Shown piece by piece: positions 23,376-54,939 of a stretch of 64,000 nucleotides of DNA. The DNA comes from Sphingobium sp. AP49 (GTDB lineage: Bacteria > Pseudomonadota > Alphaproteobacteria > Sphingomonadales > Sphingomonadaceae). Location: contig NZ_CP124576.1 of NCBI RefSeq assembly GCF_000281715.2, positions 875,501 to 939,500 on the forward strand, written 5' to 3'. The translations under genes were made by a program, and so were the position numbers. How positions within the stretch are numbered: the first letter of the stretch is position 1; every line of letters begins with the position of its first letter. A model generated the notes under the pieces. That model saw only the letters and a program-made list of their open reading frames with translations, was not told the DNA's origin and did not search any database.

Positions 23376-23405
23376 GTCCGGGGCATGAAGCCGGACATGT
23401 GAAGA

Positions 23406-23432
23406 GGGCGGGCCGAAAGGTCCGCCCTTTTT
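23406..23432 (+). terminator. Rho-independent terminator of sdhCDA
   Basis: GGGCGGGCC-GAAA-GGTCCGCCC followed by TTTTT, starting 31 bases after the sdhA stop. It has a stable GNRA-type loop and one G-T pair in the stem. Confidence 0.9.
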
Positions 23433-23498
23433 CATTGCCCATTGCCAGCCGGCGATGGGGCGTTAGCTTGGTTCCGATCGATCGAGGAGGCAGCAAGC

Positions 23499-24186: not shown

Positions 24187-24510
24187 CTAACGGGCAACCT
24201 CTATCTGCTCTCCGATAATCCGTACCTCATAGACCCGGATCGGCGCCTTGGCCGGCGGGTTCATGGCGCGGCCGGTTTCCAGGTCGAAACGGGCGCCATG
24301 GACCGGGCAGGCGATCCAGCCGGCGCGGATGCGACCGCAGGCCAGCGGCTCGTCGGCATGCGAACACCGATTGGCGATCGCGAACAGCCGGCCATTGCTG
24401 TGGCAGATCAGCACGCTCTGGCCATCCAGATCCACGACCTTGCTGGTGCCCGGCGGCACATCATCGACATGGGCGACGGGGGTGAAGGTGATCAGCGTCA
24501 TGGCCTCCAC
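24187..24510 (-). CDS. Rieske 2Fe-2S ferredoxin of a ring-hydroxylating oxygenase
   Basis: Small Rieske ferredoxin of 107 residues. Cluster ligands are in CSH (about 48-50) and CPVHG (about 68-72), the oxygenase-ferredoxin type without the extra disulfide cysteines of respiratory Rieske proteins. It would pass electrons to a terminal oxygenase; the Rieske alpha subunit at 35608-37017 is the obvious partner, though 11 kb away. The first codon is a GTG at 24510; an ATG at 24501 is also possible, with GGAGG too close (2 bases) to it, so the start is uncertain. Divergent from the VOC gene. Confidence 0.88.
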   Translation of the reverse strand: MEAMTLITFTPVAHVDDVPPGTSKVVDLDGQSVLICHSNGRLFAIANRCSHADEPLACGRIRAGWIACPVHGARFDLETGRAMNPPAKAPIRVYEVRIIGEQIEVAR

Positions 24511-24654
24511 TCACCATAGCGCGTGCCGGCCTGCAATCCGGCCCGGGCCGATGCGCGCGCGGGTGCAAGCGGCGCTGCCGCGCGGGTCATTCCGGTTCGC
24601 AGCCGCCCCTTCGATAGTGGCGAGCAGGAGAGTTGCCGCAGGAGAGACGGGGGC

Positions 24655-25119
24655 GTGCGCCAGGATTATTATCAACATGCCTATGTGACCACCGACTGGC
24701 GCCGGGCGATGGACGAGATCGCCGCACTGCACGGCATCGGCCATTATATGGAGATGCCCGACGCGCTGTTCGATACCGGGCAGGATCGGCAGGCGGTCGC
24801 CCATTTCGCGCTGGGGACCAAGGATGAACTGCAGTTCGAGATCATCCAGCCCTTGTCGGGCGATATCAGCGTCTATCAATGGGGCCTGCCGGCGGAGGGC
24901 TATGGTACCCATTTCCACCATCAGGGCCGGCATTTCGGCGATCGCGCGGCCTTCGACGCGGCTGTCGCGGCGGCCAAAGCGCGCTGGGCGATGCCGATCG
25001 CCTGGGACACGATGGGCGGCACCTATGCCTATTTCGATGCGCGGGCGGATCTGGGGCATTTTCTCGAATATTTCTGCTTCCCACCCGGATCGCATCTCGA
25101 AGCGGTGCCGAGTTTTTGA
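24655..25119 (+). CDS. VOC/glyoxalase-superfamily protein
   Basis: Vicinal-oxygen-chelate fold protein of 154 residues. A first strand carries QHAYVTTDWRRAM, a middle part LQFEIIQPLSGDISVYQW, then GTHFHHQG and LGHFLEYFCFPP, giving His and Glu candidates for a single metal site. Such proteins in catabolic clusters are ring-cleavage enzymes, isomerases or epimerases; which one cannot be read. The start is a GTG at 24655 behind AGGAGA. The stop overlaps the next start (TGATG), so it is coupled to the flavoprotein gene. Confidence 0.78.
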   Translation: MRQDYYQHAYVTTDWRRAMDEIAALHGIGHYMEMPDALFDTGQDRQAVAHFALGTKDELQFEIIQPLSGDISVYQWGLPAEGYGTHFHHQGRHFGDRAAFDAAVAAAKARWAMPIAWDTMGGTYAYFDARADLGHFLEYFCFPPGSHLEAVPSF

Positions 25120-26837
25120 TGATGGAAAGCTTCGACCTCATCGTCGTGGGATCGGGCGCGGCGGGTGCCATGGCGGCCTTGCGCGGCGCGGACCTTGGCC
25201 TGTCCGTCCTGATCGTGGAGAAGGCGCATCAATTTGGCGGCACGTCCGCGACCTCGGGCGGGGTGATGTGGGTGCCGGGCCATGGGTTGGACGGGGACCA
25301 GGGCGACAGCGCCGCCGAGGCGTTGCGCTATTTGCGCAGCGTCATCGGCGTGCCGGTGGATGAAGACAGGCTGGCCGCCTATGTCGACCGCGCACCAGAG
25401 ATGCTGCGCTTCCTGAAGGATAGCGGCGTGCCGGTAATGGCGGCGGCCTGGCCCGATTATTTTCCCGACGCACCGGGTGCGCGGGCGGACCGGTCCATCA
25501 TCTGCCCGACCTTCGACGGACGACAACTGGGCGACGAACGCTATCTGCTGATGCGGGCGCAATATGGCCGGTTCACGCTGTTCCGGCGCTACGCGATGGA
25601 CCTTGGCCAGACCTTCGCCCTGATGATGCAGCAGCGCGGCTGGCGCTGGACGGCGGCGAAGATGATCGCGCGATACTGGCTGGACCTAAGCACGCGGCGT
25701 TTGTCGGCGCGCGATCGCCGCTTCACCCAGGGCGCGGGGCTGATGGGCGCGCTCTATCATCAGGTCTTCGCGCGCGGTGTCGAACTGCGGCTGGAAACGG
25801 CACTGGAGGGGCTGACGCTCGGTACCGATGGCAGCGTGTCGGGCGTCACCGTTCGCCGCTTCGGGCAGGTGCAACAGATTGCAGCGCGCCACGGTGTAGT
25901 GCTGGCTTCCGGCGGCTTTGAATGGAATCAGGCGCTGCGCGAGCGTTTCTACCCGGTGCCGGGGCTGGCTCGCCACAGTTCCACCCCGGAGGAAGGCAAT
26001 CGCGGCGACGCACTGATCGCGGCGGAGGCGATTGGCGCGTCGGTGGCCCATACCGATCAGGGCTGGTGGATACCGACCATGACCCTGCCGGCGCCGGACG
26101 CCGCCAATTTCCACGAAATCCACCAGGCCGCCTTTGATGTCGGCCGGCCGTGGAGCGTCTGCGTCAACCGGCTGGGGCTGCGCTTCGTCAATGAAGCGAC
26201 CGGCTATGACCGGTTCGGTCAGGCCATGGTGGAAGATCAGGTGAAGACCGGCGCCAACATGCCCTGCTGGCTGATCTTCGACGCCAAGTTCCGGGCGAAG
26301 TTCAGCGCCGGCGGGCTGATGCCCACGGTGCATACGCCCGACCATCGCATTCCGGGCCATTGGTGGGACCATTATGTCTTTCGCGCCGGATCGATCGAGG
26401 AACTGGCGCGCAAGATCGGCATCGCGCCGCAAGCCCTGAGCGAAACCGTGCAGATGATGAACGGCTATGCCTGGACCGGCGTCGATCCCGAGTTCGGTCG
26501 GGGCGGCAATATCTATGATCGCTTCTTCGGCGATCCGGTCGTCACCCCCAATCCCAATCTGGGGCCGATCGACACCGCCCCCTTCTATGCCGTGCCGATC
26601 AACAATGGCGATCTGGGCACCAAGGGCGGGCTGCGCTGCGATGCACAGGCGCGGGTACTGGATGGCGGCGGCCGGCCGATCCCGCATCTTTATGCAGCCG
26701 GCAATTGCGCCGCGAGTCCCTTTGGCGACTGCTATCCCGGCGCCGGCGCGACGATCGGCCCGGCGCTGACCTTCGGCTTTGTCGCCGCCGAGGACATTGC
26801 AGCGCGGGCGAACGACAAGCAGAGGATGACGGCATGA
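25119..26837 (+). CDS. FAD-dependent dehydrogenase, 3-ketosteroid delta1-dehydrogenase-like
   Basis: Flavoprotein of 572 residues in the fumarate-reductase/KstD superfamily. N-terminal dinucleotide motif IVVGSGAAGAMAAL, then GGTSATSGGVMWVPG, and a C-terminal GNCAASPFGDCYPGAGATIG closing the FAD site. The YPGAG element matches the Tyr-x-x-x-Gly spacing of KstD active sites, so introduction of a double bond next to a ring ketone is a reasonable guess. No flavinylation His motif or signal peptide is seen. Starts at 25119 (ATGATG) inside the VOC stop and overlaps the SDR start as ATGA. Confidence 0.85.
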   Translation: MMESFDLIVVGSGAAGAMAALRGADLGLSVLIVEKAHQFGGTSATSGGVMWVPGHGLDGDQGDSAAEALRYLRSVIGVPVDEDRLAAYVDRAPEMLRFLKDSGVPVMAAAWPDYFPDAPGARADRSIICPTFDGRQLGDERYLLMRAQYGRFTLFRRYAMDLGQTFALMMQQRGWRWTAAKMIARYWLDLSTRRLSARDRRFTQGAGLMGALYHQVFARGVELRLETALEGLTLGTDGSVSGVTVRRFGQVQQIAARHGVVLASGGFEWNQALRERFYPVPGLARHSSTPEEGNRGDALIAAEAIGASVAHTDQGWWIPTMTLPAPDAANFHEIHQAAFDVGRPWSVCVNRLGLRFVNEATGYDRFGQAMVEDQVKTGANMPCWLIFDAKFRAKFSAGGLMPTVHTPDHRIPGHWWDHYVFRAGSIEELARKIGIAPQALSETVQMMNGYAWTGVDPEFGRGGNIYDRFFGDPVVTPNPNLGPIDTAPFYAVPINNGDLGTKGGLRCDAQARVLDGGGRPIPHLYAAGNCAASPFGDCYPGAGATIGPALTFGFVAAEDIAARANDKQRMTA

Positions 26838-27598
26838 CGGAACAGAAGGTCGCGATCGTCACCGGCGCGGCGGGCGGCATTGGCGAGGCGATCGTGCGGG
26901 CCTTGTGCGCCGATGGCGTGGCGGTGCTGGGCACGGGGCGCAGCGGCGACAAGCTGGCGGCGCTGGCAGCGGCCTTGCCCAAGGAAGCGACCTTTGCCTG
27001 GGTGGCGGCGGATATTGGCGACGAAGATGCGCCGGACAGGATCGTGGCGGAGGCATTGGCGCGGTTCGGCCGGGTTGACTATCTGGTCAATAATGCCGGG
27101 GCCGGGGTGTGGGCGCCGGTGCATGAAACGACCGACGCGATGCTGGACGAGGTGATCGGCCTGTCGCTGCGCGCGCCCTTTCGCCTGTGCCGGGCTGTCC
27201 TACCCCACATGGGCATGGGGTCGGCGATCGTCACCATCGGGTCGACCTTTGGCATCATGGGCGGCATGGACGGCGGCATCTATTGCGCGGTGAAGGCGGG
27301 GCTGACCGGCCTCACCCAGACGATGGCGGCGCAATATGGCGAACAGGGCATAAGATCCAACATCGTCGCGCCGACCGTGGTGCGCACGCCGATGACCGAT
27401 GCCGCCTGGGACTATCCCGCCTTCCAGCGGATCAACCAGGGGCTGACCCCCTTCTACCGCGACTGTCTCCCCGAAGATGTGGCCAATGTCGTAGCTTTCC
27501 TCTGCTCCGACAAAGGCGAATATATCAACGGCCAGGTGATCGCGGTGGACGGTGGCTGGTCGACCACGCGGATGATCAACAGCCGTTTTACCGGCTGA
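26834..27598 (+). CDS. Short-chain dehydrogenase/reductase
   Basis: SDR of 254 residues: NAD(P) motif TGAAGGIG near residue 11, NNAGAG, Ser in IGSTFG and the catalytic YCAVK pair. The C-terminal NGQVIAVDGGWST is classical. It would oxidise or reduce a ring or side-chain alcohol/ketone in the same pathway as the flavoprotein, to which it is coupled by an ATGA overlap. Its last 11 bases overlap the convergent DUF2520 gene. Confidence 0.9.
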   Translation: MTEQKVAIVTGAAGGIGEAIVRALCADGVAVLGTGRSGDKLAALAAALPKEATFAWVAADIGDEDAPDRIVAEALARFGRVDYLVNNAGAGVWAPVHETTDAMLDEVIGLSLRAPFRLCRAVLPHMGMGSAIVTIGSTFGIMGGMDGGIYCAVKAGLTGLTQTMAAQYGEQGIRSNIVAPTVVRTPMTDAAWDYPAFQRINQGLTPFYRDCLPEDVANVVAFLCSDKGEYINGQVIAVDGGWSTTRMINSRFTG

Positions 27599-28442
27599 GA
27601 TCGGCGCGCAGCGCGGCCTCGTCCCGGTCCAGTGCGTCCAGCGTGGCGATGGCCATGGCGCGATAGACCGGCAGCAGTTCGGGTGCGTGCGCGGTCAGCG
27701 CCGTCAGATGATTGCCGATCGTCTCCCGGTCGCCGCGCAGCAACGGGCCGGACAGGGCGTCGATCCCGCGATCCAGGCTGTTGTCGAGTGCGGCGTGGAC
27801 CAGCGGCGCCAGCAGCGCGCCGGGTTCGGTGACACCGGCTGCCACCAGCGCGCCGGAGGCGCCGGCGATCAGCGTCACCAGATGATTGGCCGCATGGCAG
27901 AGCGCGGCATGATAGAGGGCGCGATGCGTTTCCGCGACCTCGACCGCCACGCCGCCCAGCAGCGCGACCAGTTTATGGGCTGCCGCCAGTGCGGGAGAGT
28001 CCGGCCCGGTGATGGCGAAGCGGGCGCCCTGCATCCGGGCGACTTCGGCCGCCGGATCGCCGGTGAAGGTCATCGCCGGATGGACGGCGGCGGTGGTCGC
28101 GCCCTGCGCTCGCAGCGGGTCAAGCAGCGCCGCGCCGCTGCGCCCGCTGACATGGCAGATGGTGGCGGACAGGGGCGTGGTGGCCAGGTCCGCGATCACC
28201 GCAGGCAGGGCGTCGTCCGCCACCGCCAGCAGGATCAGGTCGCAATTGGATGACAGCGAAGATGACAGGGTAACGGCCTGCGCACGGCCGATCGCGGCAA
28301 CCGCTGCAGCGGCATGATCCGGATTGCGACCCTGCACGAGGACCGGCGCGGCGCTGTGTCGGGTCAGCGCCAGCCCCAGCGCGCACGCGACCCGGCCGGT
28401 GCCGATGAGGCCGATCTGGCGGTAGGCGGGATGCTCGGTCAT
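27588..28442 (-). CDS. Rossmann-like/DUF2520 oxidoreductase-like protein
   Basis: Protein of 284 residues with an N-terminal Rossmann domain (IGLIGTGRVACALGLAL, LLAVADDALPAVI) and a C-terminal all-helical DUF2520 domain (ALYHAALCHAANHLVTLIAGA). Similar folds occur in ketopantoate-type reductases and F420-dependent enzymes. VHPAMTFTG between the domains is conserved in the family. The physiological reaction is unknown. It lies 32 bases after the methyltransferase gene on the same strand and may share its transcript. Confidence 0.8.
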   Translation of the reverse strand: MTEHPAYRQIGLIGTGRVACALGLALTRHSAAPVLVQGRNPDHAAAAVAAIGRAQAVTLSSSLSSNCDLILLAVADDALPAVIADLATTPLSATICHVSGRSGAALLDPLRAQGATTAAVHPAMTFTGDPAAEVARMQGARFAITGPDSPALAAAHKLVALLGGVAVEVAETHRALYHAALCHAANHLVTLIAGASGALVAAGVTEPGALLAPLVHAALDNSLDRGIDALSGPLLRGDRETIGNHLTALTAHAPELLPVYRAMAIATLDALDRDEAALRADLSR

Positions 28443-28474
28443 GGCGCGCCTATATCCCGGCCGGTGCGGCTACT

Positions 28475-29335
28475 CTAGCCCGGATTGGTGGCGGTGACGA
28501 TCCAGGCAGCGCCGTCGATCAGGATCGCCGTCTCGCCCGGTCGCGTGGCGAATGCCTGGCGCACCGCCTGAGCGGCGCGATCCCGCACCTCTACAGGCTG
28601 ATCGGTAAGCGCACGGGAGAGCGGGCCGACCTCGAACGCCATGGCGAGCGCATCGTCCAGCGCTGCCTCGCGATGGGCGCCCCGGCCGAAGGGAATGGCG
28701 CCATCGACCGGGGCGAGGGCGATCTCGGCAAAGCCGGCTTCGCCCAATATGCGTGTCACCCGTGCGGCGTCGCCGAAGGAGAAGGGGCCGGGCGCTTCGG
28801 GATCGGGCGGCGCCAGCGGCGGCACGATGTCGCGGATCGCGCCCATCGGCAGGCGCACCCAGTCATTGTCCGCCGCCGCGCGCCAGCAGACGAAGGCGAT
28901 TCGCCCGCCCGGACGCAGCCAGCGCCGCATATGGGCAAAGCTGGCCACCGGATCATCGAAGAACATCACGCCAAAGCGGGAGAAGAGCAGGTTGAATCCG
29001 TGGGTGTTCAACGCCGCGCTGCCGGCATCGGCCAGGGCGTAGCGGACCGGCAGGTCGGCGGGCTGCTGCGATTGGGCCAGGGCGATCAGCGGCCCGGAAA
29101 TGTCGAGGCCCAGTACTTCACCGGTCGCGCCGACCTGGCGGGCAAGGGCGATGCTGCTGGTGCCCGCGCCGCATCCGATATCCAGCACACGCTCGCCCGG
29201 CCGGACCGCCGCCGCTGCCATCGCCGCATCGCCAAAGGGCGCGAGCATCGCATCGAGCCGCTGGCGGTGGATGACCCAGCGTTCGCCACTCGATCCGTTC
29301 CAGTCCGAGACCTGATAGACATTGGGCTGCGCCAT
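28475..29335 (-). CDS. Class I SAM-dependent methyltransferase
   Basis: Methyltransferase of 286 residues with motif I VLDIGCGAGTSSIALARQ, motif II-like GLDISGPLIALAQ and a post-motif segment LFSRFGVMFFDDPVASFAHMRRWLRPGG. The N-terminal NVYQVSDWNGSSGERWV is typical of a subgroup annotated as UbiE/COQ5-like. Substrate unknown. AAGGA precedes the ATG by about 6 bases. A 19-base inverted repeat sits just upstream, suggesting its own repressor-controlled promoter separate from the CoA-transferase operon, which ends 68 bases upstream. Confidence 0.85.
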   Translation of the reverse strand: MAQPNVYQVSDWNGSSGERWVIHRQRLDAMLAPFGDAAMAAAAVRPGERVLDIGCGAGTSSIALARQVGATGEVLGLDISGPLIALAQSQQPADLPVRYALADAGSAALNTHGFNLLFSRFGVMFFDDPVASFAHMRRWLRPGGRIAFVCWRAAADNDWVRLPMGAIRDIVPPLAPPDPEAPGPFSFGDAARVTRILGEAGFAEIALAPVDGAIPFGRGAHREAALDDALAMAFEVGPLSRALTDQPVEVRDRAAQAVRQAFATRPGETAILIDGAAWIVTATNPG

Positions 29336-29346
29336 CTTCTTTCCTT

Positions 29347-29365
29347 TTTGCGAATCGTTCGCAAA
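29347..29365. promoter_or_regulatory. Operator-like inverted repeat before the methyltransferase gene
   Basis: TTTGCGAATCGTTCGCAAA: perfect 8-bp arms around TCG, ending 12 bases before the methyltransferase start codon and overlapping the likely promoter or leader. Length and symmetry fit a TetR- or ArsR-type repressor. No regulator gene is adjacent. Confidence 0.6.
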
Positions 29366-29403
29366 TTTCTAATGGCTGGCGATGAACATGCAAGAGCGGG
29401 TGA

Positions 29404-30603
29404 TTACCAAATGACGCGACGGGTGATCAGCTTGTCAATTTCGCTGTCACTCAATCCCAATATCTCGCCATAGACCAGATGGTTATGCTCGCCGAGCAAA
29501 GGTGCGCCACGGGTGATGCTGGCCTCGTCCGGTGTCATGCGCCAGCCCGGCCCGATGACCGGCCGGGCTTCGCCCTTGGCGTCGCTGACCATGCGATAGG
29601 CCCCCAATGCCCAGAGCGCCTCGTTACCGATCAGGTCGAGCGAGGACTGGCTGCGAAAGGCCGGCACGCCCGCCAGAAGCAGCGCCTGCGCCATCGCCTC
29701 GGCATCCCAGTCGGGAGTGCATTGGGCAATGGCCGCGTCGAGCGCGTCCCGATTGGCAAGCCGGTCGGACGCCTGGGCGAAGCGGGGATCGGCGGCCAGC
29801 GCCTGCGTACCAGATATGGTACAGAAGGCGCGCCATTCCCGGTCATCGGCGATGGCGAGACTGATCCATTGCCCCTCGGCGCACGGATAGCAGCCATGGG
29901 GCGCCATGTCGGCATGGGCATTGCCCGTTGCCTGCGGCAGCTCGCCGGTCAGGCCATAGGCGAACAGGCTGTCGCCGACCATCATCGACAGCGTCTCGAC
30001 CGCTGACAGGTCGATAAACTGGCCCTCGCCGCTCGTCTCGCGATGATGGAGCGCAGCGACGATCGCCAGTGCGGCGGCGGCGCCGACGGTCGAATCGCCA
30101 TAGCGGATACTCATCCCCGCCGGCGTCTCGTCGGCATGGCCGACCAGTGCATTCAGCCCGCCCAGCGCCGCGAAACAGGGGGCATAGCCGGTCTGGTAGC
30201 CGAGCGGCCCGTCACTGCCATACATTTTGATCGAGAGCTGGATGATGTCGGGGCGGATCGCACGGACATCCTCATAGCCAAGTCCCGATCGCTCCATCGC
30301 GCCGGGCCGCAGATTGTCGATCAGCACATCGCACGCGGCGATCATCGCGCGCAGATGGGCCATGCCCTCGTCCGACTTCATGTCGAGCTGGACGCTCAGC
30401 ACCTCCTGATTGATGCTGCGAAAATAGGGCGCGCTGTCGATGTCGACGCCGCCATAGGCGCGCATCTCGTCCAGATTGGCGCGGCTTTCCACCTTGATCA
30501 CCTCCGCGCCGAGGAAGGCGAGCAGCTTGCCGGCATAGGGGCCGGCCCAGACCTTGGCGATCTCCAGCACACGGACGCCGGCGAGCGGTCCGCCCCGGCT
30601 CAT
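29404..30603 (-). CDS. CaiB/BaiF (class III) CoA-transferase, first copy
   Basis: CoA-transferase of 399 residues. The N-terminal GVRVLEIAKVWAGPYAGKLLAFLGAEVIKVE is the family start. The catalytic aspartate is probably the Asp in YGDSTVGAAAAL, aligned with the GDS of formyl-CoA transferase. It would move CoA between acids to activate a pathway intermediate. It is the last gene of the six-gene leftward operon and overlaps the preceding CoA-transferase gene by ATGA. The two copies are clearly diverged, so they may form a heteromer (as in BbsEF) or act on different acids. Confidence 0.92.
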   Translation of the reverse strand: MSRGGPLAGVRVLEIAKVWAGPYAGKLLAFLGAEVIKVESRANLDEMRAYGGVDIDSAPYFRSINQEVLSVQLDMKSDEGMAHLRAMIAACDVLIDNLRPGAMERSGLGYEDVRAIRPDIIQLSIKMYGSDGPLGYQTGYAPCFAALGGLNALVGHADETPAGMSIRYGDSTVGAAAALAIVAALHHRETSGEGQFIDLSAVETLSMMVGDSLFAYGLTGELPQATGNAHADMAPHGCYPCAEGQWISLAIADDREWRAFCTISGTQALAADPRFAQASDRLANRDALDAAIAQCTPDWDAEAMAQALLLAGVPAFRSQSSLDLIGNEALWALGAYRMVSDAKGEARPVIGPGWRMTPDEASITRGAPLLGEHNHLVYGEILGLSDSEIDKLITRRVIW

Positions 30604-31712
30604 GCCAGCATCGCCTGATCGGCGCCCGCCGCAGGAGCCGGGCTGTGCAGCCGCACCGGCGAGGCGCTCATGCGATAGGGCACGGTGGGATGCAGCGCAC
30701 CGCCCAGCGACCGGAAGAAGCCGCGATGCCGATACTGGGCATGGTCGATCAGGTCGGCGGCGCTGTTGACCTGCACCAGCGGGACGCCCGCCTGCTGTGC
30801 CGCCTGCGCCACGACATCCTTGGCCTGGGTCGCGATCCAGGCGCGGAAATGGCGGCGGAAATCGGCGACCCGGTCAGGCGTGCAATGATATTCCAGCCAG
30901 TCCTCGGGGAAGGCGATGGCCCATTCGGGATCGCCCATCAGCGCACACAGCCCGCGCCAGTGCGCGCGCGTCGTCATCAGCAGATAGACATGACCATCGG
31001 CGCAGGCGAAGGCGGCGCCCGGCCCGCCCATGTCATAGCGGGTGCGCTCCGGCCCCGGCTCCGCATCGCCCGCCAGCATCCGCCCCAGCACGCAGTCGGC
31101 GCGCGACAGCTGAACCGCGACTTCGCTGATGTCGATCGCCTGTCCGGTACCGGTGCGCCGCTTGCGTAGCAGCGAGGCCGCAGTGCACAGCGCGGCCTCC
31201 AGCCCCGCCTCATAATCGCTCATGAAGCGGCCAGCGCCCATGAGCGGTGGTCGGTCGGGCGCGCTTTCACTGGGCGTATGCCAGGCCCAGCCGCCGGCAT
31301 TCATGACGTTGATCGGGCGCGCGACCTGCCAATGGGGCGAGGCGTCCTGGCCAAAGGGGGTGATGGCGCAATGGACGATCGCGGGCTGGCTGCCCAGCGC
31401 CAGTCCGTGCTGCGCCGCCCAGTCCGGCGCATGATCGTCGATCAGCGCATCGGTGCGCGCCAGCAGACGGTCGAGCAGGGCGCGATCGCCAGGCGCCGCC
31501 AGATCGAGCAGCACCGATTTCTTGTTACTGTTGAGATAGCGGAACAGGGTGCTTTGCCCGTCATGAAACGGCCCCATGGCGCGGGTCGGGGCGCCGCCGG
31601 GCGACTCGATCTTGATGACCTCCGCGCCGAAATCGGCGAGAAGGCGGGCGGCAAATTCGCCCGCCACCCGCTGCGCCGTCTCGACGATGACCAGCCCGGC
31701 CAGCGCCGTCAT
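30600..31712 (-). CDS. CaiB/BaiF (class III) CoA-transferase, second copy
   Basis: CoA-transferase of 370 residues, starting LAGLVIVETAQRVAGEFAARLLADFGAEVIKIE. The candidate catalytic Asp is in FMSDYEAGLEAAL. Shorter than its neighbour by about 30 residues and with little direct similarity beyond the family core. It overlaps both neighbours by four bases (ATGA), which argues for equal expression with the other copy and with the HyuA-like protein. Substrate acid unknown. Confidence 0.92.
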   Translation of the reverse strand: MTALAGLVIVETAQRVAGEFAARLLADFGAEVIKIESPGGAPTRAMGPFHDGQSTLFRYLNSNKKSVLLDLAAPGDRALLDRLLARTDALIDDHAPDWAAQHGLALGSQPAIVHCAITPFGQDASPHWQVARPINVMNAGGWAWHTPSESAPDRPPLMGAGRFMSDYEAGLEAALCTAASLLRKRRTGTGQAIDISEVAVQLSRADCVLGRMLAGDAEPGPERTRYDMGGPGAAFACADGHVYLLMTTRAHWRGLCALMGDPEWAIAFPEDWLEYHCTPDRVADFRRHFRAWIATQAKDVVAQAAQQAGVPLVQVNSAADLIDHAQYRHRGFFRSLGGALHPTVPYRMSASPVRLHSPAPAAGADQAMLA

Positions 31713-33796: not shown

Positions 33797-35598
33797 GCCG
33801 CGATCCGCTCCCCGCGCAGTGCTGCCGTGGCGGCAGGATCGACCGCCAGGCTGTAATCTTCCAGACTGCCGGTCAGCGCCACGCCATAAAGGTCGCGGGC
33901 GGCGGCGATGCTCACCAGTTCGTCCAGCACATCCTCGCACACCGCCTGCGGATCGCGGCGCAGCGCCGGGCCGAAACCGGCGCCGCCGCCATGCTGATAG
34001 GCAATGACCGCGCCGGCCGGCAGTTGCGCCCGCGCCGTCAGTTCGACCCGATATTCATCGGGCGTCCCGACCTGAAAATGATTGAGATAGGGGGTGCCGT
34101 CGGCACCACCGGCCAGGCCGCTGATCGGATGATCATGGCTGACCATCCACGCCATCGCCAGCGCCGGTTCCAATATCTGCTTCACATTGCGGCTGCCCGG
34201 CATGCCGCGCCACTGGCCCGCGCCGCCGCTGTCGGTGACCAGTTCGCGGCTGATGTTGATGACGGGGAAGCGCGCCTCGCCATCCTCCGCCTGCGACAGC
34301 AGCAGATTGCCGAGCGAGACCGGGCAACTGCCCCAGCCGTCTATGCCCTGCACGGCGGATACGTCCATCGACCGGCAATCGACGCCCTGGTCCATCCACA
34401 TTTGGCCGCCCGGATCGAAGCCGATCACGGCATTGGGCATGCCGATCTTGTAGACTTGCGGTGCGGACCGGTCGGGCGCGACCTGCGACAGCGCGACGCA
34501 CACCGCCTCGGTAATTTCGCAGGCGGGGTGGAAGGAGCCGAGCGCGGCCGGACGGTTGGGCGCGGGATGAGCGATGCAGCCTTCGGGCAGGATGATCTCG
34601 ACCGCGTTGAACAGCCCTTCATTCTTGACGATGTCGGGGTCGATGCTGGCGGCGATCTGCGTCATGATATAGCCGCGCGAATTGGCAAAGGTGTTCCACA
34701 CCCCGACCAGATCCTGCCGATCGTCGGTGCCGCTGAGGTCGACGGTCAACTGGTCGCCGGCGACGGTGCAACCCACTTGGACGCGGATATCCTTGGTCCC
34801 CATCGTGTCATGGTCGATATGGACGGTCGCGTCATAGCGGCCGTCGCGCCAGACGGAGACGGTGGCGCGCATCTGCCGTTCCGACTGGTCGATCGCATGA
34901 TTGACCGCCGCCCGCACCATGTCGGCCCCCCATTTGTCGAGGATCGCGCGGATCGAGGCGGTCGCCTTCTCGACCGCGCCGATCATCGCGGCGAGATCGC
35001 CGGCGAAGCTGGGGAAGCGGTTGTTGCGTTCGAGCAGGTGGATGGCGTCGCGGCGCTTTTCGCCGCGATGGACCAGCTTCAGGCAGGGAATGGCGAGGCC
35101 CTCGGTGAAGATGTCGGTGGCGTCGAGGGTGAAGCCGCCCGGATCCTTGCCGCCGGTATCGCCCTGATGCGCCTGCAGCGCCTGCACCAGCACCAGCTCG
35201 CCCGCCGCGTCATAGACCGGCGCATAGACATTATAGTCGGGCAGGTGGCCGCCGCCATAATCGGGGTCGTTGCCGACGAAGACATCGCCCGGCCCCCAGT
35301 CATAATCTTGCTGCTGCATCAGACCATAACGGACGGTGAGTTGTGACACGAAGGTCAGATGCGGCGTGCCGATCGACCCCATGGCCAGCCGCCCATGGGC
35401 ATCGACGATCGCCGCATTGCGCTCGTTCGACTGATTGATGATGGGGGAGGAGGCGGCGCGGCCGAGATGGGTCGTCGCCTCGTAGCAGACGGTTTCCAGT
35501 GCGCCGCGAATGATGCTGGCGGTGACCGGATCGATCACCGTCGCGGTCGGCAGGGGGGGGCGCTTGGCGGCCAGTTGGGCGTTGAGGGCAAAGGACAT
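33793..35598 (-). CDS. HyuB-like hydantoinase/oxoprolinase B subunit
   Basis: Protein of 601 residues, hydantoinase B / acetone-carboxylase alpha family. Marks include DPVTASIIRGALETVCYEATTHL near the start, NERNAAIVDAHGRLA, PGDVFVGNDPDYGGGHLPDYN with probable metal-binding residues, and GGAGQWRGMPGSRN in the C-terminal half. It must act with the HyuA-like subunit encoded directly downstream. No gamma subunit (as in acetone carboxylase) is present. The start lies 9 bases after the Rieske oxygenase gene, the only junction in this operon without overlap. Confidence 0.9.
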   Translation of the reverse strand: MSFALNAQLAAKRPPLPTATVIDPVTASIIRGALETVCYEATTHLGRAASSPIINQSNERNAAIVDAHGRLAMGSIGTPHLTFVSQLTVRYGLMQQQDYDWGPGDVFVGNDPDYGGGHLPDYNVYAPVYDAAGELVLVQALQAHQGDTGGKDPGGFTLDATDIFTEGLAIPCLKLVHRGEKRRDAIHLLERNNRFPSFAGDLAAMIGAVEKATASIRAILDKWGADMVRAAVNHAIDQSERQMRATVSVWRDGRYDATVHIDHDTMGTKDIRVQVGCTVAGDQLTVDLSGTDDRQDLVGVWNTFANSRGYIMTQIAASIDPDIVKNEGLFNAVEIILPEGCIAHPAPNRPAALGSFHPACEITEAVCVALSQVAPDRSAPQVYKIGMPNAVIGFDPGGQMWMDQGVDCRSMDVSAVQGIDGWGSCPVSLGNLLLSQAEDGEARFPVINISRELVTDSGGAGQWRGMPGSRNVKQILEPALAMAWMVSHDHPISGLAGGADGTPYLNHFQVGTPDEYRVELTARAQLPAGAVIAYQHGGGAGFGPALRRDPQAVCEDVLDELVSIAAARDLYGVALTGSLEDYSLAVDPAATAALRGERIAA

Positions 35599-35607
35599 GG
35601 GCCTGCC

Positions 35608-37017
35608 TCAGCGTCCGGGCCGCAGCGGCGGCATGGCGACATAGCGGTCGACCGCCTGCTCGAAATGGCGGATGCGGATTTCCTGATAATTGCCCAGCGT
35701 CAGGCCGCGCTTGGCGCTCGCCTCTATGCCTTCCTGCTGCAGGAACAGATTGTCGGTATCCTGGTCGAGAATCTTGCCGAAGCCCGCATCCATGCCCGGC
35801 GCCTCGCAGAAGCTTTGTTCGTCGGTCAGCAGGATCGGCTCGGCCGGTTCGGGGCGCGGGCCATCGCTGGGTACCGGGCGCAGGAAGAAGACCTCATAGA
35901 TGCAGCGGCGATGATCCCCGGGGTCCGGGCGGAAGCGATAGACCATCGGCAGCGACACGCCGGGGAAGAGATAGGTGTTGGGAAAGAGGGTGTAGGAGAA
36001 GCAGTCGAGCATCTCGCTGTCGGATGTAGCGCTCAGGTCGCTGCCGGTGGCCGCGCCGAACATGGTGCGGAACAGGTCGGCCATCGCCTGCCGCGCGGTG
36101 CCGTCGCCCACCTGCGGGCGGTCCTCGCTCAGCACGGACGCGTCGCCGAGCGTGAACTGGTCGAGAATATCCTGCTCCGAAAAGCACCCCTCCAGATGCG
36201 GCGAGGCGACACCCAGGCAGGAGATGAAGCGGTTCACATGGTCGCCATAGACATCATATTGGCTGTTCGCGTCGGCGTTGGACGGGGCGACCTGCGGATG
36301 GGTTTCGATCACATGATAGGCTTCCATGAAGGCCTCGATTGTCAGCTTCCAATTGGCCGGAAAGCTCTTCTGGACATGGAGGTGGATATAGCGGTCCTCC
36401 AGCTTCCACGCCTTTATATGGGCCAGCGCCTCGGCACCCAGATAGTCTTCCAAACTGGGCGCGTCCGGGTCCATGTTGATCCATATGAAGCCGCCCAGCG
36501 TCTGGACACGAGCCTGGGGCAGGGCGTTGTTCGCCGGATCGACATGGGGGAAGTCCCAGGGGCAGGTGATGCTCTTGCTGGACCCATCCACGTTCCAGCT
36601 CCAGCCATGGAAGCTGCATTTGAACTCGCTGGCATAGCCCGCTGAGCCTGATGCCCGCAGCTTGGTGCCGCGATGCAGGCAGGCGTTGTAATAGGCGCGG
36701 ATATCGTCCGCCGCGACGCGGGTGATGATGAAGCTGTGGCGGCCGATCTCATAGACCTGATAGTCGCCGATTTCCGGTATATGCTCCTCGCGGCAGGCGA
36801 ATTGCCAGGTGCGGGTCCACAGGCTTTCCATCTCGCGCCGGGCAAAATCGGGGTCGATGTAGCGGTCGGTCGATACGTCCTCGCTACCCAGAAACGCATA
36901 GGATTCGCTGCGGACCCAGCCGGGCGCGGCAACCTTGTCGCGGGCAATGATATCCTGCGTGCTGATCGCCGGGCAGCGGGCATCGCCCGCCGCCATCGGG
37001 CCGCTTTCCATATTCAT
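35608..37017 (-). CDS. Rieske non-haem iron oxygenase, alpha subunit
   Basis: Terminal oxygenase of 469 residues. The N-terminal Rieske domain has CLH (C113, H115) and CSFH (C134, H137). The catalytic domain has iron ligands H235 and H240 in EAFMEAYHVIETHP, with the bridging Asp region nearby. It would hydroxylate or dihydroxylate an aromatic or saturated ring, or demethylate. No beta subunit gene is adjacent, consistent with an alpha-only homotrimer. The ferredoxin is probably the Rieske protein at 24187; no reductase is seen in the window. Overlaps the amidohydrolase stop by ATGA. Confidence 0.93.
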   Translation of the reverse strand: MNMESGPMAAGDARCPAISTQDIIARDKVAAPGWVRSESYAFLGSEDVSTDRYIDPDFARREMESLWTRTWQFACREEHIPEIGDYQVYEIGRHSFIITRVAADDIRAYYNACLHRGTKLRASGSAGYASEFKCSFHGWSWNVDGSSKSITCPWDFPHVDPANNALPQARVQTLGGFIWINMDPDAPSLEDYLGAEALAHIKAWKLEDRYIHLHVQKSFPANWKLTIEAFMEAYHVIETHPQVAPSNADANSQYDVYGDHVNRFISCLGVASPHLEGCFSEQDILDQFTLGDASVLSEDRPQVGDGTARQAMADLFRTMFGAATGSDLSATSDSEMLDCFSYTLFPNTYLFPGVSLPMVYRFRPDPGDHRRCIYEVFFLRPVPSDGPRPEPAEPILLTDEQSFCEAPGMDAGFGKILDQDTDNLFLQQEGIEASAKRGLTLGNYQEIRIRHFEQAVDRYVAMPPLRPGR

Positions 37018-38300
37018 GCAACTCTCCGTTGGTCGGGGGTGGCAGTGTCGATCAGGCCGGGCGCGATGCTGTGGATCGCGCCGTCCTTCATCACCATGGC
37101 CAGCCGGTTCTTGTCTTCGAGGATGGTGACGTCGGCCAGCGGATCGCCGTCCACCAGCAGCATGTCAGCCAGCGCACCGGGGACCAGCGTGCCCAGATCG
37201 CCCTGGTCGCGCATCGCCTGTCCCCCGTTGCGGGTGGCACAGGTCAGCGCGCCGGCGGCGTCATAGCCATAATAGTCGATCAGCAGCCGGATATCGCGGG
37301 CATTGGTACCCTGCGGGTTCCAGGCCAGGCCATAATCGCCGCCGATCAGATGGCGAATGCCGCGCTTGCGCAACGCGCTATGGGTCTCGACCGATGCTTC
37401 GATCAGCGCGGGGATGCCCATCGCGTCGCAGGCGGCGCGGCTGATCCAGGGTTCGCCATGATGGATCATCGCATGGAACAGCCCGATCGAGGGCGCGATG
37501 ACGATCCGATCCTTCGCTTCCTCCAGCATGTCGAGCAATTCGCTGTCGGCATATTCGACATGGAACAGGCCATCGACCCCGGCGCGGACGCAATATTTGC
37601 TGCCTTCGATCGACCGGCTATGGGCGTTCACCTTGCGGCCGAAGGCATGGGCGGTGTCGACCGCCATCTGCACTTCCTCGAACGCCATCGGCGTCACATG
37701 GGCCGGGCTGCCGGGATAGAAGGGGTCGCCCGAGACATCGAGCTTGATATTGTCGCAGCCCTCGCGGATCGCGAGCCGCACCGCGCGGCGCATCTCCTCC
37801 GGCCCGTCGACGACACAGGAAATGCCGATGCGCGGATTGTGCAGCCTGCTCTCGTCGCCCATGCCGCCGGTGACGGTGATCTCGGTCGATCCGGCGCGGA
37901 TGCGGGGGCCGGGGATATGGCCGGCGTCGACCGCGTCGCGCACCGCCACGTCCAGCTTCAGCTTGGCCGCCGATGCGCCATAGCAGCTGGTGAACCCCTG
38001 ATCGATCAGGAGCCGGGCCATGCGCGCGGTGATGAGCGTGTGCGCTTCGGGCGAGGGGGCGATCAGATCCTCGGTCGAGGCGGCGTCGCCGAAGGAGATA
38101 TGGGCGTGACCTTCGGTCAGGCCTGGCATCAGCGTCTTACCGGTGCCGTCGATGATCTGGTCGACATCGCTGCGCGCGGCATCATGACCGATGGCGGCGA
38201 TGCGGTTTCCTTCCACCCGCAGGTCGCCGACAAAGCCCGGCGCACCGGTGGCGTCCCAGATGGTGGCGTTGGCGATAAGCGTGGTCGGCACGGATGGCAT
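37014..38300 (-). CDS. Amidohydrolase, imidazolonepropionase/prolidase-like
   Basis: Metal-dependent hydrolase of 428 residues. The HxH pair is H65/H67 in GLTEGHAHISFGD; later come the IKLDVSGD lysine, NAHSRS, FHVEYAD and GGDYGLAW with the catalytic Asp. There is no signal peptide. Members open cyclic amides, imidazolones or dipeptides. In this operon it could act together with or after the HyuAB-like pair on a ring C-N bond. It is the first gene of the leftward operon, 172 bases from the divergent ferredoxin gene, so promoters for both arms lie between. Confidence 0.88.
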   Translation of the reverse strand: MPSVPTTLIANATIWDATGAPGFVGDLRVEGNRIAAIGHDAARSDVDQIIDGTGKTLMPGLTEGHAHISFGDAASTEDLIAPSPEAHTLITARMARLLIDQGFTSCYGASAAKLKLDVAVRDAVDAGHIPGPRIRAGSTEITVTGGMGDESRLHNPRIGISCVVDGPEEMRRAVRLAIREGCDNIKLDVSGDPFYPGSPAHVTPMAFEEVQMAVDTAHAFGRKVNAHSRSIEGSKYCVRAGVDGLFHVEYADSELLDMLEEAKDRIVIAPSIGLFHAMIHHGEPWISRAACDAMGIPALIEASVETHSALRKRGIRHLIGGDYGLAWNPQGTNARDIRLLIDYYGYDAAGALTCATRNGGQAMRDQGDLGTLVPGALADMLLVDGDPLADVTILEDKNRLAMVMKDGAIHSIAPGLIDTATPDQRRVA

Positions 38301-38472
38301 CCTCTTCTGTCCGCCAGACTAGGCCGCGCCCGTCCGCCGCCCAATGACTGCACGCGCACTTGGCGTTTCCTCTCGCCGCCGCCCGGCCTGCCGCGCCAGT
38401 CAAGCCACTGCGCGGCGCCATGCCTTTCCGCCCCGGCCCCCGTCCGCCATCCTGCCGGGCAAAAGGAGAGCA

Positions 38473-38796
38473 ATGTCGATGGTGCAGGTCACCTTTGTGG
38501 ACGTGAATGGCGTGGAACGGTGCGTGACGGGCGAGGGCGACCTGTCGTTGATGGAACTGGCCAAGGCGAACGGGGTCGACGGGATCGCGGCCGACTGCGG
38601 CGGCGCCTGTTCCTGCGCGACCTGCCTCGTCCATGTCGATCCGGCCTGGACCGATCGCACCGGCACGCCCGACGATATTGAATTTGCGATGCTCGACATG
38701 GTGTCGGACGTGGCGACCGACAGCAGCCGCCTTGCCTGTCAGATCCGCCTGTCGACGATGCTCGACGGCCTGCGCGTCGTGGTGGCACAGCAATGA
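38473..38796 (+). CDS. Adrenodoxin-type 2Fe-2S ferredoxin
   Basis: Ferredoxin of 107 residues with ligands C42, C48, C51 and C89 (pattern C-x5-C-x2-C plus RLACQI). It is the class that donates electrons to bacterial P450s. The ATG at 38473 has AGGAGA 3-8 bases upstream, whereas the frame extends 43 codons further without support. The stop overlaps the P450 start by ATGA, a strong sign of a dedicated redox pair. No ferredoxin reductase gene is in the cluster. Confidence 0.93.
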   Translation: MSMVQVTFVDVNGVERCVTGEGDLSLMELAKANGVDGIAADCGGACSCATCLVHVDPAWTDRTGTPDDIEFAMLDMVSDVATDSSRLACQIRLSTMLDGLRVVVAQQ

Positions 38797-40091: not shown

Positions 40092-40096
40092 GGCGC

Positions 40097-40936
40097 ATGG
40101 CAGGGGAACTGGCGGGCAAGGTCGCCATCGTCACCGGCGGCGCGGGCGGCATCGGCCGGGCCACGGTGGAATTGTTCGTGGCCGAAGGGGCGAAAGTGGT
40201 GATCGCCGATCGCGATATGGCGGCGGGCGCCGCGCTGGCATCGTCGCTGGGCGCGTCGGCCCTGTTCCTGGCGGTCGATGTCGCCGACCGGGCGCAGGTG
40301 CAGGCGATGGTCGCGCGCGCGGTCGATGCCTTTGGCGGGCTGCATATATTGTTCAACAATGCCGGGATCAGCTGCGCGCCCTTCCCGCAATTCCTCGACG
40401 ACAGCCTGGCCGATTTCGACCGGGTTATGGGCGTCAACCTGCTTGGCCCGATGCTGGGGACGCAAGCGGCGGCGCGCCACATGAAGGATCATGGCGGCGG
40501 GGTCATCCTCAACAATGCCTCGATCGCCGGCGTCCTGGCGGGACAGGCGATGATGAGCTATCGCGCGTCCAAGGCGGGGCTGATCCAATTCTCCAAGTCG
40601 GTGGCGATCGATCTTGCCCAATATGGCATTCGCGTGAATTGCCTGGTGCCCGGCCATATCCGTACCAGCCTGTCCGCCTTCAGCGCGCAGGGCGCGGCGG
40701 CCGATGCGGCGGCGCGGGTCGATGCCGCGATCGATGCGGTCTATCTGTCCAACCAGCCCTTGAAGCGGCGCGGCGTGCCCGACGATGTGGCGCAGGCGGC
40801 ACTGTTCCTGGCGAGCGACCGGGCGCGGCAGATCACCGGCATCGCCATGCCGGTCGAAGGCGGAGTGGTCGCCGGCGACCCGGTCAACCATCTGGAGGAT
40901 ATATTGGCCGCGCGGGCTCAGGCGCTCTTGGCCTGA
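40097..40936 (+). CDS. Short-chain dehydrogenase/reductase
   Basis: SDR of 279 residues: TGGAGGIGRA cofactor loop, NNAGIS, Ser in NNASIAG and the catalytic YRASK. The C-terminal part (GIAMPVEGGVVAGDP) is normal. Third gene of the ferredoxin-P450-SDR operon, it probably oxidises the alcohol made by the P450. The 3' end overlaps the convergent TetR-type gene by 19 bases. Confidence 0.9.
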   Translation: MAGELAGKVAIVTGGAGGIGRATVELFVAEGAKVVIADRDMAAGAALASSLGASALFLAVDVADRAQVQAMVARAVDAFGGLHILFNNAGISCAPFPQFLDDSLADFDRVMGVNLLGPMLGTQAAARHMKDHGGGVILNNASIAGVLAGQAMMSYRASKAGLIQFSKSVAIDLAQYGIRVNCLVPGHIRTSLSAFSAQGAAADAAARVDAAIDAVYLSNQPLKRRGVPDDVAQAALFLASDRARQITGIAMPVEGGVVAGDPVNHLEDILAARAQALLA

Positions 40937-42171
40937 GTTGAGGCCGCAGTCGTGCCGAGCATGGTTCGCAGGTCGAGCATGGCGCGCGCGCCTGCCTGTG
41001 CTGCTTCGCCTGCTGTCATGCTGAAACAGGTTTTGCGGTGGCCTGAGACGAAGCCGGAAAAGAGCGCTGCTTCAAGGGGAGAAATGTCACGCCCCAGGAT
41101 CGCGCGGAGCAACCCGCCACTGGTGCGGCCGCGTCGATAGCGCAGCTGGGGGGCAAAGTCCCTGAGATCGGCATCGCGTGCGGCGGCCAGCATCAATTCA
41201 TCGAGCGCGGGCAGGATTCGGTCGTTGCGCGGTGGAGGATTGCTATAGCGGGCGAACAGTTCTTCATCCGTCATGATCGCAGCCTCGGGGGGAGGCGTCC
41301 AGCCGCCCGATGCCACCACCTTGCGATAGATCATCTCGAACGCGGCGCGGACCAGTTCCGCGCTTGACCGGAAATTATAGGAAACGACGCCCAGGGTCAG
41401 GCCGGCACGGGCGGCGACGGCGCGGTGGGTGAGTGCGGCCATGCCGTCCAGTGCCAGCACATCGGCAGCGGCGTCGGCAATCTGTTCCATCGTGCCGCTG
41501 GTGATGGTCGGCTCCGGCAAGGCGAGGTCGGCTTGCTCGCGGGCGAATCGGCGCCAGTCGCTGTCGCGCACCGGGCGACCGCACAGCCAGTCATTCCAGC
41601 CCGCACACATTTCCTCCAGTCCGGCCCGATCGACCGGGCGGCGCCAGCGCATGAGGTGCAGCGAGGCTTCGCCGTCGAACAGATAGGCGGTATGGGCGCC
41701 GCGGCCCGGATGGCCGCAGCGGGTGCAGACCTCTTCCCAAAAGGCGCGCCACATGGCCGCCCAGCGATCGCAGACTGGCGCATAGTGAAGTTCGCGCGCG
41801 GCGATCAGTTGGCACTCGCGCCAGGCGAAGGCCAGTCGGCGCTCTGTCTCGCACCATTGGTCGATCAGCGCCGCGAGCAATGTGGGGAAGGCATCACGCG
41901 AAAGCGGCAGGACGCCGTCCAGTTCCGCCAGCCGGGCTGCGCACCAACGTTCCGAATCGCGTTGCGCCTGTTCATGGGCGGATAGAAACAATTGTTCCAG
42001 AGATCCGAAGTGGTGATAAATGCCCGAGACCGGAGTCTGGGCAAGGCGGCTGATCGCGCGCGCGGATGCGCCGCTGGCACCTTCGCATTCCCATATGTCC
42101 AGGACCGCCTGGACAAGTCGTTGCATCGCACCGGTTTCCGGTGTTTTTTCCAAGTTGCTAGCCGTCGCCAT
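40918..42171 (-). CDS. Double TetR-family regulator (two fused TetR domains)
   Basis: Protein of 417 residues containing two complete TetR-type units. The first DNA-binding helix-turn-helix is at about 36-62 (SARAISRLAQTPVSGIYHHFGS), the second at about 246-275 (LTHRAVAARAGLTLGVVSYNFRS); each is followed by a helical ligand-type domain. One polypeptide thus has the content of a TetR dimer. The ATG at 42171 with AAGGT upstream is preferred; the frame is open 185 codons further into the divergent receptor gene. It lies between the catabolic genes and the receptor and is the only regulator in the island, so it probably controls both. Confidence 0.88.
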   Translation of the reverse strand: MATASNLEKTPETGAMQRLVQAVLDIWECEGASGASARAISRLAQTPVSGIYHHFGSLEQLFLSAHEQAQRDSERWCAARLAELDGVLPLSRDAFPTLLAALIDQWCETERRLAFAWRECQLIAARELHYAPVCDRWAAMWRAFWEEVCTRCGHPGRGAHTAYLFDGEASLHLMRWRRPVDRAGLEEMCAGWNDWLCGRPVRDSDWRRFAREQADLALPEPTITSGTMEQIADAAADVLALDGMAALTHRAVAARAGLTLGVVSYNFRSSAELVRAAFEMIYRKVVASGGWTPPPEAAIMTDEELFARYSNPPPRNDRILPALDELMLAAARDADLRDFAPQLRYRRGRTSGGLLRAILGRDISPLEAALFSGFVSGHRKTCFSMTAGEAAQAGARAMLDLRTMLGTTAASTQAKSA

Positions 42172-42184
42172 GGTGACCTTTATG

Positions 42185-42195
42185 CCATAATATGG
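42185..42195. promoter_or_regulatory. Short inverted repeat before the double TetR gene
   Basis: CCATA-A-TATGG, 14 bases upstream of the double TetR start. It could be an autoregulatory site; short and AT-centred, so weak evidence. Confidence 0.3.
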
Positions 42196-42276
42196 GTGGT
42201 CGGCAAAGTGGCTGTTCGGCCGTTTCAAGAGTCTTGCAACGGTAATATACGCGCTGCGGCTGTCACTAAACTGAGA

Positions 42277-42306
42277 TACATATGTAACTGCGACTGCATA
42301 CAGTCG
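42277..42306. promoter_or_regulatory. Two palindromes upstream of the TonB receptor gene
   Basis: TACATATGTA (42277-42286) is a perfect 10-base palindrome; CGACTG-CATA-CAGTCG (42291-42306) is a perfect 6-bp inverted repeat around 4 bases. They lie 47-76 bases before the receptor start codon, between it and the double TetR gene, where an operator is expected. Confidence 0.5.
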
Positions 42307-49812: not shown

Positions 49813-49822
49813 GGGGATGATG

Positions 49823-51751: not shown

Positions 51752-51818
51752 GCAGTTTCCAACAAAATCCATGTTTCTCAAATGGATATTTCATATTTCA
51801 AAACATGTCTTAATCTAA

Positions 51819-51847
51819 TTGACAAATTGCTTTTTTTAATCTGATAT
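51819..51847 (+). promoter_or_regulatory. AT-rich promoter before the TonB receptor of the glycan locus
   Basis: TTGACA (51819) and TGATAT (51842) are 17 bases apart, a near-ideal sigma70-type pair, inside an AT-rich stretch. CTGATATCAG (51841-51850) is a perfect palindrome over the -10. The start codon is about 108 bases downstream, leaving a leader of roughly 100 bases. Confidence 0.55.
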
Positions 51848-54924: not shown

Positions 54925-54939
54925 TCGGGTCGCACCGAA

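Follow-up and report, generated by a model that had tools for sequence, protein, structure and literature searches.

A split catabolic locus in Sphingobium sp. AP49 combining HyuAB, a class III CoA-transferase pair and P450 and Rieske oxygenases

Do the enzymes encoded at positions 24187–42306 of a 64,000-nucleotide stretch of the Sphingobium sp. AP49 genome belong to one pathway, and on what kind of compound would it act? The stretch (contig NZ_CP124576.1, 875,501 to 939,500) is called the window and supplies the coordinates used here; the genome is a 4.5-Mb single contig. The genes encode a cytochrome P450 and a Rieske oxygenase, each with a ferredoxin, a flavoprotein resembling 3-oxosteroid 1-dehydrogenase (KstD), a two-subunit enzyme of the hydantoinase/oxoprolinase type (HyuAB) and two class III coenzyme A (CoA)-transferases (CaiB1 and CaiB2). 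Synteny and co-occurrence show that they are one functional unit, of which the window holds only a part. They could well encode most of a single aerobic pathway that breaks down a bulky alicyclic or polycyclic compound, a reading that we hold tentatively, and the compound would probably come from plants, fungi or soil.

Results

Gene families were called by Pfam on the open reading frames of the window (Table 1). Every enzyme named in a preliminary description of this DNA was present; the Pfam calls agree, and the vicinal oxygen chelate (VOC) protein was recognized through its homologs. A methyltransferase gene and a DUF2520 gene had been missed there. The six-gene minus-strand operon of that description is real. 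Its amidohydrolase, Rieske oxygenase, HyuB, HyuA, CaiB2 and CaiB1 genes are tightly packed, with 4-bp overlaps at four of the five joints and a 9-bp gap at the other. The operon is flanked by two plus-strand groups, VOC–kstD–SDR1 and ferredoxin–P450–SDR2, in which SDR1 and SDR2 are short-chain dehydrogenases (SDRs).

The synteny search suggested in the preliminary description supports a single unit and met no assigned pathway with the same gene order. A Rieske ortholog at 90–97% identity is present in 5 of 60 relatives (AP49 apart), all five with the same core gene order. HyuB was found at E <= 1e-100 in 9 of 94 Sphingobium genomes, AP49 included; seven are at 91–100% identity, G125 is at 74% and G094 is at 71%. 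A HyuB scan of GTDB species genomes returned 55 loci, and in 15 of these at least three further genes of the cluster, HyuA among those counted, lie in the locus itself at an identity of roughly 45% or higher. The 15 loci come from Sphingobium, Sphingomonas, Novosphingobium, Nitrospirillum, Solimonas and Stenotrophobium, and from metagenome-assembled genomes (MAGs) labelled Caulobacter, Acidocella and others. Reordered versions of the gene set occur in other proteobacteria. CaiB1 homologs (E <= 1e-80) were detected in 11 of 12 genomes searched, namely 11 genomes of the 15-locus kind and Novosphingobium sp. MW5.

The preliminary description had treated 24187–42306 as a self-contained island, and this did not hold, as its boundaries are not natural ends. 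An acyl-CoA synthetase gene, whole or cut by the end of the fetched DNA, adjoins the Rieske ferredoxin gene in all five Sphingobium relatives. The genes that follow it in G022 and G018 encode a MaoC-type hydratase, a second Rieske oxygenase, an AraC regulator, a crotonase and a divergent AraC regulator. For G020 the fetched DNA covers the synthetase and hydratase genes and a portion of the second Rieske gene, and for G030 and G016 it includes just a portion of the synthetase gene. The AP49 genome has the synthetase/MaoC/second Rieske/crotonase block at 4,056.8–4,064.1 kb. Measured along the contig this is 3.1 Mb from the island; should the contig be circular, the distance in the other direction is 1.3 Mb. 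Because the block adjoins the island in relatives but lies 3.1 Mb away here, a rearrangement has split the locus. Within the island, no match for the DUF2520, methyltransferase or TetR gene was found in the G020 stretch.

The same end of the island abuts a small gene and sdhA in the window. The sdhCDA genes (20777–24131) have no adjacent sdhB, and the only strong Fer2_3 (sdhB-type) match lies 485 kb away at 1384339. G022 has the same small gene and sdhA about 24 kb beyond the island, after further genes, so the close contact with sdhA in AP49 looks like a product of rearrangement. This bridge to sdhA was seen in G022 only; the G018 stretch ended before sdhA. Interruption of the sdh operon by an insertion was considered and dropped in view of these two distances. 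Other carriers recurrently have acyl-CoA dehydrogenases, a second crotonase, an aldo-keto reductase and SnoaL proteins near the gene set, and a luciferase-like monooxygenase beside CaiB1. A protein cluster in eight loci near the gene set consists of a fused 2-oxoacid:ferredoxin oxidoreductase (POR + DUF6537 in L098:9215-12634, the one member scanned).

Co-occurrence was measured in 298 Sphingomonadaceae genomes from 91 genera. The Rieske ortholog is present in six, one of which is AP49, chosen for having all four genes; the remaining five belong to three other genera. HyuB (E <= 1e-150) is found in eight genomes, which are the six Rieske carriers plus G094 (71%) and G366 (44%). The KstD-like gene (E <= 1e-165) is found in 13, at 72–100% identity in the six carriers and 48–61% in seven others. 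Crotonase is found in seven, at 77–100% in the carriers and 57% in G094. One-sided Fisher tests for association with the Rieske gene gave p = 3e-11 for HyuB, 1.9e-9 for the KstD-like gene and 7.6e-12 for crotonase; collapsed to genera, the values are 1.9e-6, 4.7e-5 and 3.7e-7. HyuB, KstD and Rieske genes are on separate contigs or at distances above 150 kb in G290 and G393, so linkage does not explain their co-occurrence. Of the 39 genomes picked up by a HyuB in another gene context, 32 also encode a Rieske protein at 65–81% identity, with the neighbourhood read for a minority of them. This result weakened the idea that the Novosphingobium HyuAB near dnaB, ftsH and an aminotransferase is a housekeeping 5-oxoprolinase. 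Carriage of the gene set by plasmids was dropped, as the best Rieske plasmid match is 70% over 67% of the query (Sphingobium sp. WTD-1) and the HyuB plasmid matches are all below 60% identity.

The enzymes of the locus are under purifying selection and their motifs are intact. For 15 enzyme and ferredoxin genes, ratios of nonsynonymous to synonymous substitution (dN/dS) against G018 and G022 are 0.045–0.31; 13 of the 15 give values in this range against G020, where the other two are absent. Motif columns were read from tblastn alignments, with rows below 44% identity excluded. The iron-sulfur and iron-site His/Cys/Asp motifs of the Rieske oxygenase are invariant in the 18–20 loci read, as are Y155 and K159 of SDR2 (23/23 loci). 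The amidohydrolase metal ligands H65, H67, K186 and H227 are kept in 22/22 loci and H247 and D322 in 21/21. Residues E62, H88, H89 and E138 of the VOC protein are conserved in 10/10 loci, consistent with a probable metal-dependent isomerase or epimerase. Two of its listed homologs bear the name 'VOC family protein'; it has no NCBIfam match, and its closest homologs carry no Pfam label. The Rieske ferredoxin has HcaC/AndAb-like NCBIfam matches below cut-offs and would donate electrons to the Rieske oxygenase, and the 2Fe-2S ferredoxin is the presumed partner of the P450. The TonB-dependent receptor is syntenic in four relatives, with a best match of 36% in the G020 stretch, and the double TetR regulator was found in four Sphingobium relatives that carry the cluster.

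HyuA and HyuB belong to the hydantoinase A/B superfamily, with Pfam Hydantoinase_A and Hydantoinase_B above the gathering score and DxGGT ATP motifs. Their best relative in the PDB is caprolactamase, at 392 bits for HyuA (CapA, 6yra_A) and 208 bits for HyuB (6yra_B), followed by a 1288-residue N-methylhydantoinase entry (380 and 176 bits). The scores fall to 264 and 96 bits for acetophenone carboxylase and to 216 and 57 bits for acetone carboxylase. The metal ligands of caprolactamase and acetone carboxylase are named in the excerpts of PMC8453981. The HyuB ligands E59, H118, D121 and H144 are conserved in 19/19 loci, and Glu occupies the fourth ligand position in all 53 readable loci of the 55. 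The gamma subunit of acetone carboxylase (PF08882) was not found in 16 of 17 carrier genomes, AP49 included; G062 has it on another contig. The closer lactamase scores and the missing gamma subunit lean toward hydrolysis of a lactam- or amide-like bond by HyuAB; ketone carboxylation at the ring competes seriously with this reading.

CaiB1 and CaiB2 are encoded by two adjacent CoA_transf_3 genes, the arrangement of a heteromeric class III CoA-transferase. The Asp at the position of CaiB1 Asp170 is catalytic in this family. It is kept in 22/22 loci, and the matching Asp166 of CaiB2 in 11/22, AP49 included. CaiB1 is presumed to be the catalytic subunit and CaiB2 its partner. The KstD-like protein has as its best PDB relative the 3-oxosteroid 1-dehydrogenase 7p18 (436 bits over residues 83–642), and its C-terminal YPGxG motif (Y539, P540, G541 and G543) is kept in 18/18 loci; enzymes of the KstD type have further catalytic Tyr residues besides this motif. 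Its best score against the listed NCBIfam KstD models is 471 bits versus a cut-off of 789, below all of the cut-offs and short of an equivalog assignment. The match favors a bulky cyclic ketone intermediate, and the enzyme presumably acts on a cyclic ketone.

A putative conserved operator lies at 38341–38372, upstream of both the amidohydrolase and the ferredoxin–P450 operons. The element reads C[CA]AATGACTG, followed by GGCGTTT in the window. It has 16 matches in 2.22 Mb of fetched DNA, of which 14 are between amidohydrolase and ferredoxin genes, one is upstream of a ferredoxin gene (L104) and one is inside a gene (L043); one first-order Markov randomization of the same DNA gave seven. The G330 and G286 versions have a further Rieske gene in this interval between amidohydrolase and ferredoxin. 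The matches come from 13 genomes (two genomes counted twice) of Sphingobium, Sphingomonas and Novosphingobium and one MAG. The element was not found in the Sphingomonas sp. 35-24ZXX version (L077/L118) or at the fetched unlinked HyuAB or KstD loci. Scans for promoters and terminators did no better than chance, and Rfam gave no match. A perfect palindrome with 8-bp arms (29347–29365), single copy in the window, lies just upstream of the methyltransferase gene.

Table 1. Features of the locus in window coordinates
Feature	Position	Strand	Evidence and remarks
Rieske-type [2Fe-2S] ferredoxin	24187..24510	-	PF00355 4.6e-20; position kept in 5 Sphingobium relatives
VOC-fold protein	24655..25119	+	PF13669 Glyoxalase_4 in 4/47 listed homologs
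KstD-like flavin (FAD) dehydrogenase	25119..26837	+	PF00890 FAD_binding_2
SDR1	26834..27598	+	PF13561 9.2e-59; ATGA-coupled to kstD
DUF2520/Rossmann protein	27588..28442	-	PF10728; accessory, not in G020 version
S-adenosylmethionine-dependent methyltransferase	28475..29335	-	PF13649; accessory, not in G020 version
CaiB1, class III CoA-transferase	29404..30603	-	PF02515 2.6e-96
CaiB2, class III CoA-transferase	30600..31712	-	PF02515 1.4e-70
HyuA, ATP-binding subunit, hydantoinase/oxoprolinase type	31709..33796	-	PF01968/PF05378/PF19278
HyuB, metal-site subunit of the same enzyme	33793..35598	-	PF02538 2.9e-110
Rieske non-heme iron oxygenase, alpha subunit only	35608..37017	-	PF00848, PF00355
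Amidohydrolase-superfamily enzyme	37014..38300	-	PF01979 2.3e-22; nearest PDB entry 3mtw
Conserved element C[CA]AATGACTG...GGCGTTT	38341..38372	+	Divergent region, amidohydrolase/ferredoxin
2Fe-2S ferredoxin	38473..38796	+	PF00111 8e-8; 4-bp overlap with P450 gene
Cytochrome P450	38793..40091	+	PF00067 2.2e-34; heme motif FGGGVHRC, AGNETT
SDR2	40097..40936	+	PF13561 1.1e-54
Double TetR-type regulator	40918..42171	-	PF00440 twice (two TetR_N in one chain); start set by homology
TonB-dependent receptor	42353..44620	+	PF00593, PF07715

A probable mannan or glycan utilization locus, unrelated to the island, lies at 47437–62238. It encodes three glycoside hydrolases (GH) of family GH92, with GH125, GH2, GH43 and a TonB receptor, and is followed by a ROK regulator and a sugar transporter.

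Discussion

The order of steps, the class of substrate and the chemistry of HyuAB are proposed here from enzyme families. The TonB-dependent receptor would probably take up the substrate. The P450 and its ferredoxin would hydroxylate an unactivated carbon of the ring or side chain, giving an alcohol that SDR2 would oxidize to a carbonyl. Ring hydroxylation, desaturation and isomerization could be shared among one or two Rieske oxygenases (of the island and the displaced block), the KstD-like dehydrogenase, SDR1 and the VOC protein. HyuAB would then use ATP to activate a carbonyl of the ring and set free a carboxylic acid; the likeliest reaction is hydrolysis of a lactam- or amide-like bond, and the amidohydrolase may act on a second bond of this kind. 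The CaiB1/CaiB2 pair would transfer CoA onto the acid. Degradation of the skeleton, with beta-oxidation, would fall to the crotonase, the MaoC hydratase, the acyl-CoA synthetase and the acyl-CoA dehydrogenases.

Several observations weigh against this pathway or against the lactam step within it. HyuA and HyuB reach 546 and 232 bits against an NCBIfam caprolactamase equivalog cut-off of 1000, and HyuB Glu59 aligns with Glu89 of acetone carboxylase, versus Asp41 in caprolactamase. The aminotransferase found beside HyuAB in many Novosphingobium loci is present in 102 of the 298 genomes (5/6 carriers and 97/292 others, one-sided p = 0.019) and missing from G409; being common and at best weakly associated, it was given up as a pathway gene. 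Seven of the 39 HyuB genomes have no Rieske match (G421, G446, G449, G450, G451, G454 and G457); six are MAGs, and G454 (locus L085, Novosphingobium sp. ST904) is not. The G125 HyuAB genes (HyuB at 74%) have no other named cluster gene within about 18–22 kb, in a genome not searched for a Rieske gene elsewhere. G094 has no Rieske match at the threshold and keeps homologs of HyuAB, CaiB1 and CaiB2 (50 and 46% identity), crotonase (57%), P450 (57%) and ferredoxin (53%), with a KstD-type flavoprotein also in this diverged version (L131–L133). The retained HyuAB, CaiB pair, crotonase, P450 and ferredoxin look like the central steps, whether HyuAB is read as a lactamase or a carboxylase.

HyuAB could instead be a two-subunit, ATP- and bicarbonate-dependent ketone carboxylase acting in the breakdown of a nitrogen-free substrate, which is possible if doubtful. 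The P450 and SDR2 would produce a ring ketone, HyuAB would carboxylate its alpha carbon, CaiB1/CaiB2 would form a beta-ketoacyl-CoA, and the crotonase would open the ring hydrolytically, as 2-ketocyclohexanecarboxyl-CoA hydrolase does. G094 keeps the minimal set that this route needs, the Glu at the fourth ligand position is that of acetone carboxylase in 19/19 loci, and no aminotransferase is strongly associated. Carboxylation followed by CoA activation is also the logic of acetone and acetophenone breakdown. HyuAB is nonetheless nearer in sequence to lactamases, almost all carriers lack the gamma subunit, the amidohydrolase suggests a C–N bond, and the crotonase reaches no more than 49.5 bits with the model for 2-ketocyclohexanecarboxyl-CoA hydrolase. 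Aerobic ring opening in which a new two-subunit HyuAB carboxylates a ring ketone with ATP, CoA transfer and crotonase cleavage follow, and these steps together replace Baeyer-Villiger oxidation or ring hydrolysis, is rather unlikely; if true, this strategy would belong to a pathway spread over several proteobacterial orders. The C–N bond opening of the preliminary description stays a candidate step: HyuAB is nearest to ATP-dependent lactamases, but the aminotransferase, the one nitrogen-handling gene that seemed linked, speaks for it weakly at best. Nitrogen in the substrate is neither shown nor excluded.

An upstream part of ordinary steroid or sterol degradation that feeds the 9,10-seco pathway is improbable. 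The KstD-like enzyme is nearest to 3-oxosteroid 1-dehydrogenase, the P450 matches many entries, CYP125- and CYP142-type ones among them, and the displaced acyl-CoA synthetase matches FadD3 and CasG models at scores under their cut-offs. The 9,10-seco route is marked by KshA, HsaABCD and IpdAB, and no role in it is known for HyuAB, the CoA-transferase pair or the amidohydrolase. The tomatidine and bile-salt pathways were dropped, as the main text of a tomatidine paper (PMC10653915) and of one Chol11 paper (PMC12175502) holds no mention of hydantoinase, oxoprolinase or 'CoA transferase'. In a bile-acid review (PMC8399759), 'CoA transferase' occurs twice, in passages that were not read, and hydantoinase and oxoprolinase were not searched for. 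Abscisic acid was also set aside, the parts of PMC7996341 consulted giving no gene set to compare. The steroid-like substrate of the preliminary description stays plausible through the match of the KstD-like enzyme to 7p18. An accidental gathering of separate small catabolic modules in Sphingobium is very improbable: the modules do move independently, and HyuAB, KstD and crotonase are not all beside the Rieske gene in G290 and G393, but the genes still share the same 6 of 298 genomes in four genera, and this co-occurrence largely refutes it.

Under the preferred reading of one catabolic unit, about 20 scattered 'Rieske', 'P450', 'hydantoinase' and 'CoA-transferase' annotations become one testable orphan pathway in several bacterial groups. 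The displaced half of the locus is named in this genome, and a HyuAB subfamily is defined whose reaction would be lactam hydrolysis or ketone carboxylation.

Comparison with known systems

The preliminary description knew of no characterized counterpart, and a search of open full-text papers (PMC), with subscription papers and preprints outside its scope, likewise found no description of this gene combination. Caprolactamase, CapAB of Pseudomonas jessenii, resembles HyuAB in its two-subunit ATP-dependent type, B–A gene order, His-Asp-His metal site and ATP motifs, as far as the excerpts of PMC8453981 describe it. HyuAB differs in falling far below the equivalog cut-off and in a Glu that replaces Asp at the fourth metal ligand, with three of the four ligands kept. 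The aligned HyuB segment also lacks the vicinal Cys pair, and Phe156 stands in place of CapB Tyr136 in a by-hand reading of the alignment.

The Aromatoleum indoleacetate route includes a CoA-transferase, a B12-dependent mutase and downstream genes of the benzoyl-CoA type, and we know of no P450, Rieske or KstD step in it. Its cluster encodes IaaCE, for which hydantoinase-like two-subunit opening of a lactam is proposed in an anaerobic route (excerpts of PMC8453981). The likeness of IaaCE to HyuAB is one of description, with the sequences uncompared. Acetone and acetophenone carboxylases belong to the same superfamily as HyuAB and have three or more subunit types, according to the same excerpts (PMC8453981). 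They differ from HyuAB in this subunit number, the gamma subunit being the one sought in the carriers, and in their lower similarity.

The CaiB1/CaiB2 pair resembles BbsEF of the benzylsuccinate type, a class III CoA-transferase formed from two adjacent CaiB/BaiF genes; here too two genes are adjacent and only one has an invariant Asp, a likeness by description with the sequences uncompared. The KstD-like enzyme differs from 7p18, which we take to be AcmB of Sterolibacterium, in its score below the KstD equivalog cut-off, and resembles it in a full-length match and the YPGxG motif.

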